A stretch of 64,000 nt of DNA from Polyangium spumosum (GTDB lineage: Bacteria > Myxococcota_A > Polyangia > Polyangiales > Polyangiaceae). Positions 4,334 to 36,099 of the stretch are shown here, piece after piece. The translations under genes and the position numbers were made by a program. The stretch is taken from the NCBI RefSeq assembly GCF_009649845.1, contig NZ_WJIE01000005.1:372001-436000 (forward strand). The letters are read 5' to 3'. Each line of letters begins with the position of its first letter. Position 1 is the first letter of the stretch. The notes below the pieces were generated by a model. The model was not told where the DNA came from. It ran no database searches and saw only the letters and a program-made list of their open reading frames with translations.

Positions 4334-5590
4334 ATGAGCCACCTGCCCACGCTCGTCGTGTTCGTCGCGACCTACGCCTTGATCGCCTTCCGGCGGCTGT
4401 CGCTCCTTCCGATCGGCAGGCCCGGGGGCGCGCTCGCCGGGGCCTGCGTGATGGTCGTGCTCGCGTCGATCGAGCCGCGCTGGGGCATCGACGCGGAGGC
4501 GGCCTTCGCCGCGGTCGAGCCGAACACGATCGGGCTCTTGCTCGGGATGATGCTGCTCTCGGCGGCGCTCGCCGAGGCCGGGTTCTTCGAGAGGGCCGCG
4601 TCGTTCCTGCTCACGCGGCAGCCCTCGCCGGTCGGGCTCCTGTACGGGACGACGCTCGCCTCGGGCGTGCTCTCGGCGGTGCTGGTGAACGATCCCGTGT
4701 GCGTGCTCTTCGCGCCCGTCGTGGACGCGACGGCGCGCCGGGCGGGCCTGCCGCGCGTGCCGTACCTGCTCGCGCTGGCGATGGGGGCAAACGCGGGCAG
4801 CGCCATGACGCTCGCGGGGAACCCGCAGAACATGCTCGTCGCGCACCTGTCGGGCCTGTCGTACCGGGACTACCTCCTCCGCGGCGGACCAGCCGGGTTC
4901 CTCGCGTTGCTCGTCACGGCCGCGACGCTGCACTTCCTCTTCCGCAAGCGCCTCGTCGTCTCGAGCGCGACGACGCCCGTCGAACCGGCTGCGATCGCCG
5001 CGCCTCGATCCCGCGGCGAGCTCGCGCTCGCGCTCGTCGTGCTCCTCGGCGTCTCGATCGCCTTCCTCGCGGGCGCGAACCTCGCCTTCGCGGCGCTCAC
5101 GGGCGCGGCGGCGCTGCTCGTCCTTCGCAGGCGTGATCCCACGTCGCTCTTCTCGGGCGTCACGTGGACCGTGCTCGTCTTCTTCGGCGCGCTCTTCATC
5201 GTGGCCGCCGCCTTCCAGCGCACGGGCCTCGTCGACGAGGCGCTCGCGGCGGCGCGGCCGTACATCCCAGCCGATCCGGGCGCCTCGATGGTGGCGCTCT
5301 CTGCGATGTTCACGCTCGGCTGTCAGGTCGTGAGCAACGTCCCCTTCATCCTGCTCGCCGAGCCCATGATCCGCACGTTGCCCGATCCCACGCTCGCCTG
5401 GACGGTCACGGCGATCGCCACGACGCTCGCCGGCAACCTCACGCTGCTCGGCTCCGTCGCGAACATCATCGTCGTCGAGGCCGCGCACGCGGAGGACGAG
5501 ATCGGGTTCGTCACGTACCTGCGCGCGGGTTTGCCCGTGACGATCACCTCGATGATCGTCGCGATCGGCTACCTCCTGCTCGCGGGTTGA
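4334..5590 (+). CDS. SLC13/ArsB/NhaD-type (CitMHS) membrane transporter
   Basis: 418 residues with about 10-11 hydrophobic segments. The two inverted halves carry the ion-transporter superfamily signatures. The first half has VLVNDPVCVLFAPV and LAGNPQNMLVA near residues 115-165. The second half has VVSNVPFILL and AGNLTLLGSVANIIVVE near 335-380. These Asn/Pro-broken helices line the transport site in the ArsB, NhaD and DASS families. Substrate (arsenite, Na+/H+ or a carboxylate/sulfate anion) cannot be decided. There is no arsR or arsC neighbour, so arsenite export is not especially favoured. The stop is 1 bp from the convergent stop of the metallophosphoesterase gene. Confidence 0.88.
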   Translation: MSHLPTLVVFVATYALIAFRRLSLLPIGRPGGALAGACVMVVLASIEPRWGIDAEAAFAAVEPNTIGLLLGMMLLSAALAEAGFFERAASFLLTRQPSPVGLLYGTTLASGVLSAVLVNDPVCVLFAPVVDATARRAGLPRVPYLLALAMGANAGSAMTLAGNPQNMLVAHLSGLSYRDYLLRGGPAGFLALLVTAATLHFLFRKRLVVSSATTPVEPAAIAAPRSRGELALALVVLLGVSIAFLAGANLAFAALTGAAALLVLRRRDPTSLFSGVTWTVLVFFGALFIVAAAFQRTGLVDEALAAARPYIPADPGASMVALSAMFTLGCQVVSNVPFILLAEPMIRTLPDPTLAWTVTAIATTLAGNLTLLGSVANIIVVEAAHAEDEIGFVTYLRAGLPVTITSMIVAIGYLLLAG

Positions 5591-5591
5591 T

Positions 5592-8015
5592 CTAGTCCGT
5601 CGCCGACGACAGCAGCGACTTCAACACGTGCCGCGGATACCGCTGCTCGCTCTCGCTGAGCCCGTCCTTCGCCTCGGCCACGAGCGTCCAGAACACCACG
5701 TTCACCACGGTCTCCAGCATCCGCCGCAGCTTCGCGGCCTCGGGGTCCAGCGTCTCGGTGCAGATCGCGCGGGCGAGGTGGCCGAGCGCGCGCTCGACCT
5801 GCGTGTTCTCCTCCTCGCTCGCGAGACCCACGACGCCGAGCGAGCTCTCCTCCTCGGGCGCGAGCCGGAGCGGGAAGCACAGGATCCACCGGTAGTTCCG
5901 CGCGAAGAGGCGGTGATGGTCCGGGCTCGGCTGGTAGATGATGCTCGTCGTCGCGTTCGCATCTCGATGCCACGCCGCCGTCTTGTTGAAGCGGAACGCG
6001 TGGCCCGCGACGCCGCTGCCGCAGGCGAACCGCGCCGCCCAGGACTGAGGCCAGAACTGGCCAAACGCCGGGCAGAGCAAACGCAGGCTCGCGTCCCAGA
6101 TCATGCCCATCCACGAGCCACGCTCGCCGAGCAGGCCCTTCGTGATCGGCACGGTCTGCGCGCCCCAGGGCGAGGCCGTGGCGATCTTCAGGATCGCCGT
6201 GCCCACCGCCTCCGTCAGCTTCGCCGACATCGACTGGAGCGACATCGGCTTGCCGCAGCAGCGCTCGAGCAAGGCGCGCGCGGTCCACTTCGCGGCCTCG
6301 GGGTACTCCTTGCCGAGCCCTCCGGGGCGATACGCGAGCGAGTACCGGTAGCCCACGATCGGCCCCGGGATCTTGAGCTCGACGTGCGCCTTGCCGACGA
6401 TGAAGTGCGAGCGGCAGCGCTCCTGCTCGAACTCCACCGGCTCCCAGCGCTGCTCGCCGAACTGCTCGTAGCAGCGCTCCACCATCGGGTACGCGTCCTC
6501 GATCGTCGCCCCCGAGCTCTCCGCGAAGACGAGCGCCAGCGTGAGGTGATCGGACTCGAAGCGCACGACGTGCGAGCGGACGTCGTAGCCGTCGATCAGG
6601 TTCGGGTACCAGCGATCGCGCTTCTCCAGCAGGTTGAGCTCGGCCTGCGTGAGCGCGACGGCGTTCGAGAGGTGGTAGCTCCACGTCAGGTAACGCTCGG
6701 TCTTGTCGGCGCCCTGGAGCATGAAGCGCACGCGCCCGCCGCCGAGCGCCTCCTCCTTCACGTCGCGGCGGCCGCGCCACGTCGTCGCGCGAGGCTCGGC
6801 CTGGACGTTGTTGTACGGCGGCTCGAGCACGGCGATCGGCGTCTCGACGGGCGCCACGAAGTCACGCAGCTCCACCTCGACGAGCGCGATGCCGTCGTCG
6901 CCGACGCTCCAGATGCGCGTGTGCTCGCGGGCCTTCACGAAGCGCTCGGCTTGCGCGACGGGCTCCCAGTTCACCTCGAAGTACTTGCGCTTCGGCTCGA
7001 GCGCGTACTCGCCGGCCTCGCCGTCGCGCTCGTACACCTCGACGCTGACCGTGCTCGGGCTGAGCCGCACCACCGAGAACTGGTTGCCCACGGCGCCGGG
7101 GCGCTCGTGCGCGGCCGAGCCGAGCGATCCCGTGGAGATGATGACGAACCGGCTCTTGAAGAGCTCGACGAGCTTCGAGCTCTCCTGGTGCGTGTGGCCG
7201 TGGAAGCCGATGCGGAAGCCCGCGGCGTAGAGGGTGCCGACGTCCTGCAGCGTGAGGTAGTCGGGGCGCCCGCGCTCGCTGGTGAAGCCGTGGTGCCAGA
7301 CGGCGACGCGCAGCGTGTCGCGATCGAGGCCGTTGGCGAAGTCGCGGGCGGCGGAGACCGCGCGGGTCGAGATGCAGGCGCCGGTCCAGTACTTGTCGTT
7401 CCGGTGGCAGGAGTTGAAGCCGAAGAAGGCGACCTTCTCCGAGGGGAAGACGTGCGCCGACCAGTGCTCGCGTTCGTTCGCGTCGAGCAGATCGAAGGTC
7501 CGACCGCGACCATCCAAGGACTCGCCGTAGAAGCGGTCGAAGAACCGCTGCACGTTCGCGAAGCGCTTGTTGTACTCCGCGCCGACGCGCAGCTTGACGA
7601 GGTCGAGGTGTCCGTAACGGCCCACGTCGATGCGCAGATCCGAGAGGTCGGGCGAGCGCTTGAGGCGTTGCATCTCCTGCTCGAGCAGGTCGAAGTCGTG
7701 CGCGGTGCGCAGCGTCGTGGCGCGCACGGGCTCGCCGATCTCGGCGCCCCAGTCGACGTCGTGGTTGCCCGGGACGAAGATCACGCGCGCGCGCTCGCGG
7801 CCCGCCACGAGGGGCAGGACGCGGTGCTCGGCGAACTCGAGCAGCTCGTCGTACTCGTCGGCGCTGCCGCGCTGGGTGAGGTCCCCGCTGACGACGACGA
7901 AGTCGAAGGGCGCCGGGTGCAACGTCCCGAGCGCTTGCGCGGGGTGCATCCACACGTCGTCGAGCGTTTGCCCGGGCTCCGTGACGTGAAGATCCGACAG
8001 ATGAAGGATGTACAT
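5592..8015 (-). CDS. Calcineurin-type metallophosphoesterase with GAF-like C-terminal domain
   Basis: 807 residues. Residues 1-330 are a complete calcineurin-like phosphoesterase. The metal ligands are Asp8 and His10 (SDLHV), Asp45 (SGDLT), Asn84-His85 (PGNHD), a WHHG motif and GHTHQE near 275-285. This half should hydrolyse a phosphodiester or phosphomonoester with two metal ions. Residues about 350-570 are unrecognised and beta-rich. The last ~200 residues contain a block (GSGVAGHAFRFNKTAAW, then YRWILCFPLR and GVVGLAS) that resembles a GAF sensor fold. This GAF reading is by pattern only. A phosphoesterase coupled to a ligand-sensing domain suggests a nucleotide-regulated nuclease or signalling enzyme, possibly in defence or stress. 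No partner gene is obvious apart from an 81-residue ORF just upstream. Confidence 0.82.
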   Translation of the reverse strand: MYILHLSDLHVTEPGQTLDDVWMHPAQALGTLHPAPFDFVVVSGDLTQRGSADEYDELLEFAEHRVLPLVAGRERARVIFVPGNHDVDWGAEIGEPVRATTLRTAHDFDLLEQEMQRLKRSPDLSDLRIDVGRYGHLDLVKLRVGAEYNKRFANVQRFFDRFYGESLDGRGRTFDLLDANEREHWSAHVFPSEKVAFFGFNSCHRNDKYWTGACISTRAVSAARDFANGLDRDTLRVAVWHHGFTSERGRPDYLTLQDVGTLYAAGFRIGFHGHTHQESSKLVELFKSRFVIISTGSLGSAAHERPGAVGNQFSVVRLSPSTVSVEVYERDGEAGEYALEPKRKYFEVNWEPVAQAERFVKAREHTRIWSVGDDGIALVEVELRDFVAPVETPIAVLEPPYNNVQAEPRATTWRGRRDVKEEALGGGRVRFMLQGADKTERYLTWSYHLSNAVALTQAELNLLEKRDRWYPNLIDGYDVRSHVVRFESDHLTLALVFAESSGATIEDAYPMVERCYEQFGEQRWEPVEFEQERCRSHFIVGKAHVELKIPGPIVGYRYSLAYRPGGLGKEYPEAAKWTARALLERCCGKPMSLQSMSAKLTEAVGTAILKIATASPWGAQTVPITKGLLGERGSWMGMIWDASLRLLCPAFGQFWPQSWAARFACGSGVAGHAFRFNKTAAWHRDANATTSIIYQPSPDHHRLFARNYRWILCFPLRLAPEEESSLGVVGLASEEENTQVERALGHLARAICTETLDPEAAKLRRMLETVVNVVFWTLVAEAKDGLSESEQRYPRHVLKSLLSSATD

Positions 8016-8058: not shown

Positions 8059-8304
8059 CTAGCGGCCGCTCGCAGCGCGTCGCCTCGAGGTCGACGGGTT
8101 TTCGGAAGGCACGGACTCACGTTGTGTGTTCGGCGCGAAAGAGCCCGACAGGAGCTCCTTCGTGTACCGCATGGCCTGCATGGCCACCGCGCGGTCGATG
8201 ACGAAGGGTTCACGAACGAGAACCACTGCATCCTGAAACGCCGCTTCGCGAGGGGCAACAGCGGCGGCCGGGGCCGCGGGTCGGTTCTTGGCGCTCGCAC
8301 TCAT
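8059..8304 (-). CDS. Hypothetical 81-residue protein
   Basis: A small ORF starting MSASAKNRPA with a GGAG about 12 nt upstream of the ATG at 8304. It lies 43 bp upstream of the metallophosphoesterase gene and on the same strand. The composition is that of a real soluble protein (a mixed central helix VIDRAVAMQAMRYTKELL with a disordered, basic C-terminus) and differs from the Arg/Ala-only shadows nearby. No family is recognised. Overlapping ORFs in other frames read as Arg-rich nonsense. It could be a small regulator for the phosphoesterase. Confidence 0.5.
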   Translation of the reverse strand: MSASAKNRPAAPAAAVAPREAAFQDAVVLVREPFVIDRAVAMQAMRYTKELLSGSFAPNTQRESVPSENPSTSRRRAASGR

Positions 8305-8738
8305 TGGGCATCATCTCCGCAAGGCCGATTTTTCAGATTTTCCAGGAAGACCTGGCCAGAAGGCAAGACAGAGAGCGAGAGACCGAGGCGCCGCAGCGCG
8401 ACAAAGCCGCGTTTGCCCCGGCACCGCGTGCGCGCGGCGCGATCGTCCCTCGGATCGCGGCTGCGTGACACCCTCGGCCTCCGGCGGTCGGCATGCGCCA
8501 ATCCTACACGATGTGCAGAAGAAGCAAGCCTGCACCGACGCGGATTGTGCACGTTCGTGTCGCCCGCGGCGAACCCCGGACCGTCCTGGCTGCGGAATGT
8601 TCCTTGCAGCATCACGAGCCTGCGGCGCACCTAAAGCCGCGCCTCCCAAACCGCAACAGCCTCGATCGACTTTTCTGCCGGGACGGCACGCGGCGAGCAC
8701 GCATCGGTCGGTGGAGTTTCCACCCGAGGCCCGGCGCG
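8305..8738. other. 434-bp intergenic region, no convincing gene
   Basis: The region lies between the 3' end of the RND pump gene and the start of the 81-residue ORF. It has a somewhat lower G+C content than its surroundings and short open frames on both strands. These give Arg/Pro/Ser-rich translations without start signals or recognisable folds. I see no clear terminator, tRNA or repeat. Confidence 0.5.
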
Positions 8739-15725: not shown

Positions 15726-16838
15726 ATGATGCCACAAGTGCTCCCCATGCCCCGGGCCTGGGCCCTCCCCTCGATCCTCGCCGCCCTCGTGTCGCTCGCC
15801 TTCACGGCGGACGCACACGCCACGAGCAACCTCCGCCTGCGCTGGTCCGCCCCGGAAGGTTGTCCCACGGCCGAGGTCGTCTCTGCCGAGGTGGATCGGC
15901 TGCTCGGCGGGCGCGGCTCGCAGGCCGAGCCGCTCGACGTCTCCGCCGAGGTGACGCGCGACGACGCCGGGCGGTATCGCGTGCGGCTCACGACGCCGAG
16001 CGACGAGGGACCTCGCGCCCGGGAGGTCGAGGCCTCCTCCTGCGCCGCCCTCGGCGAGGCCGCCGCCCTGATCATCGCCATGATGATCGAGCCAGCCGTG
16101 ATCGCCGAGCCCCCGCCGCCGTCCCCCCCACCTTCGAAACCTCAACCGCTTCCACCTCCGCCCCTCCCCCCCACGACCGGAACCGCAACCGCTTCCACTC
16201 CCGCCCCTCCCCCCCACGACCCGGACCGGAGCACGTCGCACCTTCGAAGGTCCCCCCCACGACCCGAACCTCGACCGACTCCACCTTCGAAGGTCCCTCC
16301 GTTGGTTCCCGCACAACCGCCTTCACCTCCGCCCATGGCCCTCGTCGCCCGCGCCCTCGCCGACGTGGGCACCTTCCCCTCGCCCACCCTCGGCTTCGGC
16401 GCCGCCGTCTCCCTCTTCGTCGGCCGCTACCGCCTCGAAGCCGGCGTCGCTTACCTCCCGACCCGCTCCTTCCCCTTCCCCACCCTCGACGCGGCCCGCG
16501 GCGACATCGACCTCCTGCTCGCCCACGTCGGCGCCTGCGCCGCCTTCTTCCAGCGACCCCCCTTCGAGCTCGGCCCCTGCGTCTCCTTCGAGGCCGGCCG
16601 CCTCCAGAGCAGGAGCGCAGGCGTCTCCTCCCCGGGCCAAGGCGCCGCGCCCTGGCTCGCCTTCACCGCGGGCGCGCGCTTCGGCTGGACGTTCGTGCGG
16701 CCCTTCTCCCTCGTCGTTGGCCTCGGCGCCGGCGCCCCCGTCGTGCACCCGGACCTCGTCGTCTCGGGCCTCGGCGCCGTCCATCGCGCCTCCCCCGTCG
16801 TCGGCCGGGCCGAGCTTGGCCTCGAGGTGCGGTTCTGA
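15726..16838 (+). CDS. Exported outer-membrane-barrel-like protein with repeat-derived Pro-rich linker
   Basis: 370 residues from 15726; an equally good start is the ATG at 15747, giving the signal peptide MPRAWALPSILAALVSLAFT cleaved after AHA. The N-terminal module (about 30-120) has the sequence APEGCPTAEVV and a second Cys in SSCAALGEAAALI. The C-terminal half (about 205-370) is a run of amphipathic strands ending in Phe (LGLEVRF), as in outer-membrane beta-barrels. The linker between is Pro-rich and encoded by a 43-bp tandem repeat (see 16131-16325). Another gene at 31578-32705 has the same architecture (CPDAEEV module, linker, barrel ending RKF), so this is a paralogous family of unknown function. 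Confidence 0.75.
   Translation: MMPQVLPMPRAWALPSILAALVSLAFTADAHATSNLRLRWSAPEGCPTAEVVSAEVDRLLGGRGSQAEPLDVSAEVTRDDAGRYRVRLTTPSDEGPRAREVEASSCAALGEAAALIIAMMIEPAVIAEPPPPSPPPSKPQPLPPPPLPPTTGTATASTPAPPPHDPDRSTSHLRRSPPRPEPRPTPPSKVPPLVPAQPPSPPPMALVARALADVGTFPSPTLGFGAAVSLFVGRYRLEAGVAYLPTRSFPFPTLDAARGDIDLLLAHVGACAAFFQRPPFELGPCVSFEAGRLQSRSAGVSSPGQGAAPWLAFTAGARFGWTFVRPFSLVVGLGAGAPVVHPDLVVSGLGAVHRASPVVGRAELGLEVRF
16131..16325. repeat. 43-bp tandem repeat array inside coding sequence
   Basis: Four consecutive units begin at 16155, 16198, 16241 and 16284 (43, 43, 43 and 42 bp). A partial unit begins at 16131. Units share a C-tract with CCCCCCCACGACC, and several start with the palindrome CCTTCGAAGG (16131 imperfect, 16241, 16284). 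Because 43 is not a multiple of three, each unit is read in a different frame. That explains the irregular Pro/Thr/Ser/Arg-rich linker of the host protein. The period and the central palindrome resemble the intergenic array at 34769-35248. Confidence 0.8.
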
Positions 16839-29494: not shown

Positions 29495-30244
29495 CTAGGC
29501 GCCGCTGCCCGCCGGGACCTCTTCCTTCGCCGCCTTCTTCACCGGATCGTCCTCCCACATCACGAGGGGCCGCAGCAGCGTATCGGCGAGCTCCTTGGTC
29601 GCGGGCTGCTTGCGCTTCACCGAGCCGAGCACGGCGGTCACGTAATGCTTGAGCGAATCCGTGAGCGCGTCGAGCCGCGTGCGCACGGCGGCGCGCTCCT
29701 CCACGGGCACGGTGTGCACCATGCCGAGCACCTTGCCGTATTGCTCGTGAACTTGCCGCAGGTGCGCGAGCAGCGGGCCGAGGCCGAGATCGTCGAGCTT
29801 CCCTTCGAGGTTCTCCCGCGTGATCGTCTTGAGCTTCGTGTCGACGACCCCGTATTCGTCCCGCGGTCGCATGTTGATGAAGCCGAGCCCGTCCTCGACG
29901 CCGAGGTGCGCCCCCACCTCCACGGCCACGTCCCCGAGCCCGAACTGCCCGCGCACCCGCGACCAGCCGAGGAGGATGAGAATGAGCGCGGCGGCCGCAT
30001 TGTCCTCCATCTTGTCGACGGTCCGCACCTCGCCGGTCTGCGGCTCGGAGCCGAGCGTGTCTTGCAAGGCGGCGCGGTCCACCTTCACATCGTCGAGGGC
30101 ATCTTGCACCGTATCCGGCAGGATACGTGGATGGCCCGCCTCGTCCCGCGCGGCCGCCTCGAGCTGCTGGGCGAGGACCGTGGCCTGGTTCGCGTCGAGG
30201 CGCGGCAGGGGGACGACGGTTGTCGAGTCAAGGATACGTGCCAT
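29495..30244 (-). CDS. Hypothetical soluble protein
   Basis: 249 residues, with an ATG at 30244. The protein is helical and acidic with no signal peptide. Recognisable stretches are VLAQQLEAAARDEAGHPRIL near the start and a central VRGQFGLGDVAVEVGAHLGV. The C-terminal half is a likely helical bundle (RTRLDALTDSLKHYVTAVLG) with a Lys-rich end. I do not recognise a family. It is upstream of and codirectional with the kinase/phosphatase pair but separated by 75 bp. Confidence 0.7.
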   Translation of the reverse strand: MARILDSTTVVPLPRLDANQATVLAQQLEAAARDEAGHPRILPDTVQDALDDVKVDRAALQDTLGSEPQTGEVRTVDKMEDNAAAALILILLGWSRVRGQFGLGDVAVEVGAHLGVEDGLGFINMRPRDEYGVVDTKLKTITRENLEGKLDDLGLGPLLAHLRQVHEQYGKVLGMVHTVPVEERAAVRTRLDALTDSLKHYVTAVLGSVKRKQPATKELADTLLRPLVMWEDDPVKKAAKEEVPAGSGA

Positions 30245-34073: not shown

Positions 34074-34646
34074 TCAATGGTGAGATCCGAGCCGAAAGAT
34101 GGGCCCCGCGGAGCAGCGGACCGAGACGCCGCTCCACACGGGAGAGGCGGCGCCCGTGATCCAGGTGGCCGCGCAGTCCACGGAAACGCCGAGGCCTCCC
34201 GAGAGGTACGGGCCGAAGACGTCGAGCCGCGCGCTGGCACCTGGGGCGAGGCCCTGCACCTGGGCGCAGAGCCGCGGGCCGCAGAGCGGGAGCGAGTACG
34301 CCGCGAGGGACAGCCCGGCGCTGACGTTCACGCGCTGCCAGGCGAGACCGCCGCCGACGGTGGTCTCGTTCTTGATCCCGAACCGTCCGCCGTTCGCGCC
34401 GAGGAACGATGCCGTGTCACGTACCACGAAGAACCCGCGCTCACCGCGAAGGCTGAGGCTCGCGCTCGGGCTGATCGCGAACCGCCCGGAGACGATGCCA
34501 GCAGCGAGCACGCCGAAGCCAGTCCCCCCCGAAAACTCGACGTCCGGCTCGGCGCTGGCGCTCTCGCTGAACAAGAGTGGCGCTGCCAGGGTGATCGGAA
34601 ACAGGAACGCCCTGATCCGCCGAAGAAAGCGATGCGCGCCACCCAT
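34074..34646 (-). CDS. Small exported beta-rich protein, first gene of the accessory operon
   Basis: 190 residues, ATG at 34646. A positively charged N-terminus (RFLRRIRAF) and hydrophobic core end in SASAEP, a signal peptidase I site. The mature part is made of short amphipathic strands (FSGGTGFGVLAAGIVSGRFAIS, SLSLRGERGFFVV, GGGLAWQRVNVSAGLSLAAY). It has two Cys pairs and fits a small outer-membrane beta-barrel. It is followed after 22 bp by the lipoprotein gene. Upstream is the 43-bp palindrome array. Confidence 0.72.
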   Translation of the reverse strand: MGGAHRFLRRIRAFLFPITLAAPLLFSESASAEPDVEFSGGTGFGVLAAGIVSGRFAISPSASLSLRGERGFFVVRDTASFLGANGGRFGIKNETTVGGGLAWQRVNVSAGLSLAAYSLPLCGPRLCAQVQGLAPGASARLDVFGPYLSGGLGVSVDCAATWITGAASPVWSGVSVRCSAGPIFRLGSHH

Positions 34647-34768
34647 GCCCCGACCCTCCGCGTCCCGGTGCGTACCCCTCGCCCCAGGTGTAGAGGGCTA
34701 CGAGTGCGCCGATGCCTCGGTCAACCGTCTTCCCGGGCGTTTCCCGCATCCGCGCGCGTCGCCGCCTA

Positions 34769-35248
34769 CCCCGCGAGGGTCGGCCCACGCAAGCGAATGC
34801 GCCTCGGGGCCCCTCGGAGGGTGCCCAAACGCTTCGCCTTGCGCGCCTCCTGCCCTCTGAAGGGTCGCACCACGCGACGTCGAGCGGCGGAGGCGCCCTT
34901 CGAGGGGTCGAAAATGGCTCCGCATTGTGGAATTCATGGCCCCCGGAGGGGCCTTTCGCGGATCCCCTTGCGACGAAGACCCTCCCAGGGCCTCACTCCC
35001 CGCAAGCCGAAGCGGTCCTCGACCCTCCCGGGGTATCCCCCGCCGCAACACGAAGCGTCGAAAGGCCCTCCCGGGGTGCCTCTCGACGGTCCGTCTTCCC
35101 ACGAATCGGCCCCCCGAAGGCTCCGCGCACGCAAGCACGAGCGTCTCCCGATACCCGGCAGGGCAATTCGCACGCAAGGCGACGCGGATGTCGACCCCTC
35201 GAAGGGCTCGGTGCGCGCTTCGGCTCGCGCTCGCGTGGCCCTTCAGGG
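34769..35248. repeat. About 12-unit, roughly 43-bp periodic array of short palindromes
   Basis: Palindromic cores of the type CCCTNNNAGGG occur at 34769, 34810, 34853, 34896, 34940, 34980, 35023, 35066, 35110, 35154, 35195 and 35239. Steps are 41, 43, 43, 44, 40, 43, 43, 44, 44, 41 and 44 bp. Examples are CCCCTCGGAGGG, CCCTTCGAGGGG, CCCTCCCGGGG and CCCCTCGAAGGG. The ~32-bp intervals are divergent, though several contain CGCAAG. One more degenerate core may lie at 34732. It fills the 664-bp gene-free region (34647-35310) downstream of the borosin methyltransferase operon. It is not coding: the period is not a multiple of three and all frames give low-complexity Arg/Pro text. Confidence 0.8.
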
Positions 35249-35310: not shown

Positions 35311-36099
35311 CTACCGGACCGCCATCCCGAGGCGCTTGCAAAGCTCGAGGTCGGGCGTGGGTCGCTCGGAGGCGGGTACGTAGAGGGTGCTCGCCGGGGT
35401 GAGCTGCACCTTGGTGAGGTCGCGAATGGGTACCCAGTCCGCCCTCGGCTTGCAGCCGGGGAAAATGGCGGATTCGTACACGCACACCTCGTGGTCCGGC
35501 GAATAGAAACGGGAGAGGTACTCGACGAAGAGGGGAATCTCGCGCAGCTCGTAGTGCGTACGGCTGTAGTCCATGTGGCCGAAGACGCCCACCTGCCAGA
35601 GAATGAGCACAGCCTTCGGATTGGGGACGAAGCCGGCGGTGACGAACGTCGTGGCCTCGTAGCTCTGGCATCCGGGTGACCCCGGATCGACCCCGAGCTC
35701 GGCGAAGAGGCAATCCTCCGCCGAGATCCCCGGCAACATGAACGCCTCGTAGCCCTGCTTTCGAAGCCTCCGGATGGCCGTGTGCGTGGGATACGCGAAC
35801 ACGCCGGGGTGGCCATAATAAACGGCGCACGTGCGGAGGCCGGCGTGCACGCACTCGATCATGCGCTCGACCATCTTCTCGTACGTCTCGCGGCGGAGCT
35901 TCCCCTCCTCGTAGAACACGGCGAGCGACTCGGCCTTCTCCGGGTTGAGCCGCTGAATGACGCCCTCGGCAACGGGGTCTGTAACCACGTAGAGGACCTT
36001 GTCGGCCCCCTTGATCCAGGCGAGCGCCTCCTGGGTCAAGTGGCCGACCGTCTTGATGCCGCTACCCACGACGACGAGCGAACCTTTTTTGCTGTCCAA
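35311..36099 (-). CDS. Split-borosin-type peptide alpha-N-methyltransferase 1
   Basis: 262 residues of the tetrapyrrole (TP) methylase fold. It begins KGSLVVVGSGI, the SAM-site strand. YYGHPGVFAYPTH lies at 94-106, and FMLPGISAEDCLFAELGVDPG then CQSYEAT follow, blocks shared with borosin methyltransferases (fungal OphMA, Shewanella SonM). Tyr63, Arg69 and Tyr73 in FYEEGKLRRETY align with the catalytic Tyr/Arg/Tyr of OphMA. It should methylate backbone amides of the adjacent precursor using SAM. The start is a TTG with GGAG eight bases upstream, matching the start of copy 2. The precursor gene lies 95 bp upstream. Cobalamin or siroheme methylase is unlikely: no such pathway genes are nearby, and a SonA-like gene is. 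Confidence 0.93.
   Translation of the reverse strand: MDSKKGSLVVVGSGIKTVGHLTQEALAWIKGADKVLYVVTDPVAEGVIQRLNPEKAESLAVFYEEGKLRRETYEKMVERMIECVHAGLRTCAVYYGHPGVFAYPTHTAIRRLRKQGYEAFMLPGISAEDCLFAELGVDPGSPGCQSYEATTFVTAGFVPNPKAVLILWQVGVFGHMDYSRTHYELREIPLFVEYLSRFYSPDHEVCVYESAIFPGCKPRADWVPIRDLTKVQLTPASTLYVPASERPTPDLELCKRLGMAVR

Follow-up and report, generated by a model that had tools for sequence, protein, structure and literature searches.

The whole stretch of DNA analysed here, which we call the window, comprises 64,000 nucleotides (64 kb) of Polyangium spumosum (contig NZ_WJIE01000005.1, positions 372,001 to 436,000) and contains, at 34769..35248, a non-coding array in which two kinds of dyad alternate every two helical turns. 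From the phase and conservation of these sites we propose, with a probability of about 0.5, that the array may serve as a platform of helically phased double-stranded DNA to which proteins bind cooperatively; the binding, its cooperativity and its effect are what we infer. The array would act as double-stranded DNA on which dimeric proteins would sit on one helix face and bind cooperatively along the array. Once bound, it would build up into a nucleoprotein structure by which the locus is marked or shaped, putatively for silencing, anchoring, titration or the regulation of neighbouring genes.

The first kind of dyad, site B, was called where at least six of the eight fixed positions of CCCTNNNAGGG matched. 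The array and its sites are as follows.

34769..35248, no strand, site-B array of period 43 bp with 12 CCCT-N(2-4)-AGGG dyads (motif scan with shuffle control)
Site-B dyad starts: 34769, 34811, 34853, 34896, 34940, 34980, 35023, 35066, 35110, 35153, 35196, 35238

The steps between the dyads are 42, 42, 43, 44, 40, 43, 43, 44, 43, 43 and 42 bp, and the chain is the longest of its type in the window. The preliminary description of this DNA had claimed twelve palindromes at steps of 40-44 bp over 480 bp, and had proposed autocorrelation and shuffling as checks. Both checks confirm that the twelve evenly spaced dyads are real. The autocorrelation of the segment peaks at lag 43 (followed by 171, 85, 86 and 214), and its 43-bp value is the highest in the 64 kb among 480-bp windows. 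Shuffling never reached equal regularity: the longest chain was 4, against 12 in the array. Chains of 0-4 were found in 2000 order-2 Markov shuffles of the segment (length 4 in 2/2000), and chains of 2-4 in 100 order-3 shuffles of the 64 kb (length 4 in 1/100). The units are diverged, with 45% of positions identical at lag 43, and Tandem Repeats Finder did not report the window array. Because most unit lengths of the arrays cannot be divided by 3 and many indels separate homologous arrays, we agree with the earlier claim that the array is non-coding.

A second motif, site A (CGCAANNNNRAGCG, 14 bp, in either orientation), is centred between consecutive site-B dyads. The copies in the window array, all from sequence reading and motif statistics, are listed here; the interval between dyads 8 and 9 is without a clear site A.

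34788..34801, plus strand, site A CGCAAGCGAATGCG, between dyads 1 and 2
34830..34843, minus strand, site A CGCTTCGCCTTGCG
34873..34886, plus strand, site A CGCGACGTCGAGCG
34916..34929, minus strand, weak site A GGCTCCGCATTGTG, in a slot that is degenerate in the homologous arrays L080, L084 and L085 as well
34957..34972, no strand, degenerate site A CGCGGATCCCCTTGCG
35001..35014, plus strand, site A CGCAAGCCGAAGCG
35044..35057, plus strand, site A CGCAACACGAAGCG, exactly 43 bp after the preceding site A
35130..35143, plus strand, site A CGCAAGCACGAGCG
35173..35186, plus strand, site A CGCAAGGCGACGCG
35216..35229, minus strand, site A CGCTTCGGCTCGCG

Across ten Polyangium arrays we scored 78 copies of site A, using hand-made matrices based on four of them. 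All copies except one (77/78) are exactly 14 long, 42 are forward and 36 reverse, and the outer CGC and GCG are almost fixed. Adjacent site-A centres lie 43 bp apart in 32/44 cases and 42 bp apart in 10/44, with 41 and 44 bp found once each (standard deviation, sd, 0.53). Over 87 steps in the ten arrays the mean is 42.75 bp (sd 1.22), and the two half-steps between the site types average 21.32 and 21.27 bp. Since site A stands midway between the site-B dyads, dyads alternate every ~21.3 bp, or two helical turns. The single, local row of palindromes seen previously is thus there, with half of its sites overlooked; the array is also one member of a class, as set out below.

Similar arrays were found at other loci of congeners by blastn of the window locus against 39 relatives; when the array itself was first compared with five loci by blastn, there was no match. 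We searched six congeneric genomes with R1, a model built from the sequence of two units alone, and grouped the matches (loci and genomes carry our own L and G numbers, G000 being the window's genome). Among the matches listed there are at least 10 arrays in five of the six genomes (two in G000, two in G001, three in G003, one in G004 and two in G005), and one array remnant at G001:C115:53178; G002, where the best E was 0.0044, shows no clear array. Between 6 and 13 dyads were detected per array in ten arrays of the genus. Judging from the N-termini and lengths of neighbouring open reading frames (ORFs), the window and L084 occupy corresponding protein-kinase blocks, L080 has neighbours in common with L085, and so does L081 with L083. 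These six arrays at three loci align along their length in one orientation, and the true orientation outscores the reversed array in 15/15 pairs (for instance, 354 versus 146 for the window and L085). The remaining four arrays pair off more loosely, L077 with L082 and L076 with L079.

Conservation in the six-array alignment is concentrated on the sites. Counting columns with at least five letters, and with site classes assigned on the window row, 42/54 columns of the site-A CGC/GCG are invariant, as are 12/34 of its inner AA/RA columns, 33/79 of the site-B arms and 29/221 of the spacers. When the window array is set aside, the other five are pairwise identical at a rate of 0.91 for CGC/GCG, 0.72 for the site-B arms and 0.49 for the spacers. 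Within this window subfamily, unit order and site-A orientation are mostly preserved between loci and species, and the degenerate site-A slot is common to the window, L080, L084 and L085.

Outside the genus, R1 found little. It matched 36 of 108 genomes of the family at E<=0.01, and its best match outside Polyangium (E 1.8e-4, L087) is coding by eye. A chain finder run on the returned loci gave nothing strong, with the exception of a 43-bp repeat in G062, from another genus of the family; this is a tandem array at a contig start (L093 1-290, G062:C58), and its unit is weakly like that of the window. A pattern scan of contigs returned at least 118 stretches, mostly unrelated, including several exact 42-bp repeats in one orientation that are probably coding. 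One observation from an actinobacterium, Dactylosporangium vinaceum, is an array of 41-bp period with a CGCTCTGACTTGCG-like motif (L151 4483-4647), probably due to chance. None of the 19 pattern matches in viral contigs was a mixed-orientation 43-bp chain, and the array had no match in 72,556 plasmid records, nor in phages.

Site A recurs in three genera. We searched the 108 family genomes for two site-A motifs in 43-bp phase and obtained matches in 14; the reversed control matched none of those 14 and seven others (G046, G048, G018, G083, G089, G108 and G010). Because of these control matches a single match is no proof, and each was therefore judged individually. Those in G041, G064, G115 and G117, a hexanucleotide run in G002, and one of the two in G114 looked by eye like coding sequence or repeats of another kind and were set aside. 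Minicystis (G091) and Sorangium genomes contain ~300-bp elements that carry the site-A motif. In some pairs of elements from these two genera (L281-L278, L282-L286) the similarity is limited to ~285-425 bp and the flanks are unrelated; other pairs also have neighbouring genes in common. In the elements of both genera CGCTCTGCATTGCG recurs with a spacing of 42-43 bp; at a distance of ~4 x 43 bp stands CGCAATGCATTGCG, invariant in 9/9 aligned elements. The intervening palindromes differ (GGGGGGTAC-TCCGGA-GTACCCCCC in Minicystis, GGGG-TCCGGA-CCCC in Sorangium), and many of them have the core TCCGGA in common.

The preliminary description had offered a row of small RNA hairpins as an alternative to protein binding, which would make the array a non-coding RNA, a terminator or a 3' untranslated region element. 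We consider this improbable, and rejected it for Polyangium because covariation was not above that of shuffles. Over 97 palindromes, picked for matching C- and G-rich arms, Watson-Crick pairing equalled that of shuffled arms. In the six-array alignment 74.1% of cells were paired (73.9% when shuffled), 6 pairs were changed on both sides (5.2 when shuffled), and the covariation score was reached by 56/500 shuffles. The RNAalifold covariation term for the Polyangium arrays was +5.84, and Rfam gave no match at its gathering score. As the arms do not covary and site A is used in both orientations, recognition of double-stranded DNA is indicated. The earlier suggestion of cooperative binding on nearly the same helix face fits the phase (sd 0.53), the conserved dyad bases and the two orientations; the binding itself we infer.

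Arrays with this period are not confined to the window subfamily. In 800 kb of unselected sequence from G000, Tandem Repeats Finder reported 24 non-coding arrays with a period of at least 25, of which 16 have a period of 42-43 or a multiple: nine of 43 (two of them overlapping in L373), three of 42, and four of 85, 126, 127 and 129. Non-coding here means as labelled by our simple ORF caller, which excluded the period-43 arrays L374 and L430 as coding. Another period-43 tandem repeat, which may or may not belong to this class, occurs in the window itself (16138-16286, 3.5 copies, 74% match); it lies in a C-rich stretch that looks by eye like a proline-rich linker. The unselected samples from other genomes are small, at 100-200 kb each. 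A second Polyangium and a Sorangium (200 kb each) gave one array of period 129 apiece, and Minicystis (100 kb) gave periods 42, 83 and 126 among its non-coding arrays. In two genomes from another family of the same order (200 + 100 kb), 0/11 arrays had a period of 42-43 or a multiple, and two had a period of 41. Named contigs of other taxa (754 kb) had period 43 twice and period 42 seventeen times, in a sample that was selected by pattern and is biased to 41-44. The ten strict arrays (periods 43 and 129) in 800 kb extrapolate, without being a count, to ~130 per genome.

The unit sequences of this wider class are unrelated between most loci. Their symmetry is more uniform: 13/21 units show circular dyad symmetry at p<=0.05, compared with 4% of 300 random genomic 43-mers, and these divide into 7/12 unselected units and 6/9 from loci of the A5 protein family described below. 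As part of the proposal made above, we see the window array as a long-lived member of a 43-bp-period, often dyad-symmetric intergenic class in the family of Polyangium, Sorangium and Minicystis. What this class keeps is nearly a single period of four helical turns, 43 bp and sometimes 42; its sequence is free to change from locus to locus. It lives in some of the largest bacterial genomes, and raises the question whether the period is set by a bound protein filament, by a copying mechanism or by both. No description of such arrays in myxobacteria was found in the literature searched, which excluded most subscription papers, and they are absent from the consulted passages of a myxobacterial genomics review (PMC8538405) and of the So0157-2 genome paper (PMC3696898).

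Some arrays adjoin genes of an uncharacterised protein family, A5, that is predicted to be nearly all-helical. A5 genes directly adjoin L076 and L079 and lie 1.3-2 kb off in L081, L083 and L085; none was found near L077, L080, L082 and L084. The window has one member.

29495..30244, minus strand, A5-family protein, 249 aa (amino acids), predicted nearly all-helical, 4.5 kb from the array

A5 members also occur in 3/4 Minicystis element loci and in 5/20 Sorangium element loci (L282, L284, L285, L328 and L330, among L282-L286 and L316-L330). To quantify the association away from known arrays, we chose 20 of 61 listed A5 members. An array of period 43 (or 86) was present within ~250 bp of the gene at 7/20 loci, with L358 (a 42-bp array 1.9 kb away) left uncounted. 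Since a site-A match beside the gene of L362 was already known, that locus was dropped, leaving 6/19. Among control genes, all of them from G000, the count was 11/332 (p 9e-5), or 14/332 when periods 42-44 and multiples were admitted (p 3e-4). Within G000, 3/5 A5 loci (L344-L348) have an array, and four G002 loci (L352-L355) are without one. A further 17 A5 loci, mostly from other genera, form a weak replicate with 42-43-bp arrays at 3 of them (p 0.04). In other genera, 42-bp arrays with palindromic units adjoin A5 genes at L452 2319-2484 and L458 2278-2382. Because unselected arrays far outnumber A5 members, the association is an enrichment and no rule. There are 1-11 A5 copies per genome in eleven genomes (seven in G000), and the family is present in 58/183 genomes of the order, including the control genomes G036 and G026, whose samples had no 43-bp array.

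The structure model of the A5 family has a mean predicted local distance difference test score (pLDDT) of 76.7 and a predicted template modelling score (pTM) of 0.47, and a Foldseek search against the PDB returned nothing at E<=0.001. All Pfam matches are below threshold (DUF6261 in 3/10, best 0.041, with 0.019 for L282; Mur_ligase_C in 3/10, best 0.0079), so we assign A5 to no family. It has no NCBIfam or PADLOC match, and the window protein has none among plasmids and phages. By position only, A5 is a candidate for binding the arrays, and its enrichment beside them makes it a concrete candidate partner. A doubtful extension is that A5 and the 43-bp arrays are one chromosomal system, in which A5 or a partner would assemble on any dyads phased by two turns, with geometry counting over sequence. 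If this were true, one machinery would serve many arrays of unrelated sequence, as a bacterial counterpart of satellite DNA and its packaging protein.

Several observations weigh against the protein-binding platform. The site-B arms are far less conserved than site A, and the motif columns look conserved in part because the scoring matrices were hand-made from four of these arrays. The unit-by-unit register is, from scores alone, supported but not proven: when one array of a pair was rotated by whole units, the best score fell in 10/15 pairs, tied in 1 and rose slightly in 4 (all with L083). Because units are unrelated between most loci, no single sequence-specific protein explains all arrays of the wider class, and near-identical adjacent units in L077, L082 and L360 point to ongoing tandem duplication, as in a minisatellite. 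The RNA of either strand folds more stably than its shuffles (z -3.25 and -4.54), as expected of palindrome-rich sequence. In the Sorangium and Minicystis elements a helix between neighbouring site-B blocks has compensatory pairs (UA:6/GC:3 and GC:5/AU:3; total covariation term -0.11), and a folded structure could exist in those relatives. The last two points, together with the position of several arrays near the stop-codon end of a gene, are what speaks for RNA hairpins, which the analysis disfavours in Polyangium and which find some covariation in the other two genera.

The main rival is a functionless bacterial minisatellite, in which copying linked to replication or repair would proceed in steps of ~43 bp, with dyads aiding slippage and units drifting afterwards. 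That one period is shared by unrelated unit sequences at many intergenic loci fits this explanation, as does the excess of dyad-symmetric units over random 43-mers. Copying with a 43-bp step does happen, since units are near-identical in L077, L347 and L360; adjacent units of this kind are also seen in L082. It accounts less well for conservation between species that is focused on site bases and phase, for the largely preserved unit order and site-A orientation of the window subfamily, and for a 14-bp site A in three genera. We consider it possible, if unlikely. Both explanations can hold, with copying creating arrays and selection retaining some of them.

The genes beside the window array offer two further, more local interpretations.

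34696..34726, minus strand, promoter-like block GGTTGAC...GTAGCC, read from sequence and a candidate promoter only
34074..34646, minus strand, 190-aa ORF beyond the array and the promoter-like block, outer-membrane-protein-like by eye
35311..36099, minus strand, TP_methylase-domain protein (PF00590, E 9.3e-18), part of the 'borosin operon' of the preliminary description, with a putative borosin function

The 190-aa ORF is without a Pfam or NCBIfam match. The TTGAC of the promoter-like block stands 44 bp from the last dyad in the window, and a similar block follows L080 (41 bp) and L085 (40 bp). The 40-44 bp between the last dyad and TTGAC at all three loci would suit an upstream activating array for this minus-strand gene, and a relative of the 190-aa gene is also found at L080. 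Such a role is nevertheless highly improbable: at L026 the block stands alone with no array, the homologous array of L084 lacks a GGTTGAC in its vicinity, and no CCCT-type chain was detected within +-1.5 kb at 15 other loci with relatives of the 190-aa gene (L030-L037 and L039-L045). A single-promoter enhancer was rejected on the first two of these grounds. The arrays moreover adjoin many unrelated genes, on which account we also rejected an element specific to the borosin operon. The placement downstream of that operon is locally true, as the array lies beyond the stop-codon end of the TP-methylase ORF with a gap of 62 bp. It is uninformative, because at L084, in the corresponding kinase block of another species, the array has a kinase ORF on either side and no methylase ORF was called in that interval.

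Other features of these surroundings vary. The kinase/TP-methylase cluster (window 26699-47231, L078, L084) is arranged differently between species, and the array follows the methylase in the window, is a remnant before a leader-like ORF in G001, and in G005, with no methylase present, separates two kinase ORFs. The GGTTGAC...GTAGCC block is shared by several loci of the genus (L026 ~1500-1570, window 34650-34757), possibly as a common promoter type. A hairpin-rich repeat (GGGGTTTCACCCCGG... and TGCATCGACCGCGATGCGGTCGATGCA) is found beside three arrays (L080 ~8455-8560, L085 ~8255-8360, L082 ~5505-5610), and similar repeats of period 28 occur in L371 and L375.

The array shares traits with several known repeat systems. 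Like CRISPR loci, it has short palindromes at regular spacing. Unlike them, its 'repeat' is short and degenerate, and instead of near-identical repeats with unrelated spacers it has 'spacers' that can be aligned from locus to locus and contain a conserved motif of 14 bp; no cas gene was found in the 18 window ORFs scanned. This bears out the earlier remark that the array is not a CRISPR. Repetitive extragenic palindromic (REP) sequences and bacterial interspersed mosaic elements are likewise GC-rich intergenic palindromes in clusters, and their presence goes with a RAYT in the genome. The arrays differ in their constant 43-bp phase, in line with the earlier judgement that they are too regular for REP, and in their alternating second motif and, over the wider class, locus-specific units. 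REP palindromes carry a GTAG or CGTC tag, as named in the title of PMC3733652. Minisatellites (variable number tandem repeats) are similar in being tandem and intergenic, with near-identical adjacent units at some loci; head-to-tail copies are clear in L077, L347 and L360 and diverged in the window array. The arrays differ from them by one favoured period over unrelated sequences and by dyad symmetry, and in the window subfamily site bases are more conserved than spacers between species, a constraint beyond homogenisation. For a structured RNA, the curated family is lacking in Rfam at the gathering score.

A chromosomal centromere-like partition site of the ParB/SopB type is, for all its resemblance, very improbable. 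Such centromeres combine dyad-bearing tandem repeats, which the array has, with a linked parA/parB operon, and a Pfam scan of 18 window ORFs found no ParA, ParB or other partition domain. Several arrays occur per genome, at non-corresponding places, and the array is unmatched among the plasmid records. Because of the missing partition domain in those ORFs and the several arrays per genome, we do not claim membership. The Polyangium arrays differ further in being chromosomal, in their diverged units and in an extra second dyad per unit. By analogy, the F-plasmid centromere (sopC/parS) is nonetheless what the array resembles most: as described in PMC6238139 (see also PMC9499535), it consists of twelve tandem repeats of 43 bp with ten inverted repeats of 16 bp, and so matches the window array in unit number, in period and in carrying short dyads.
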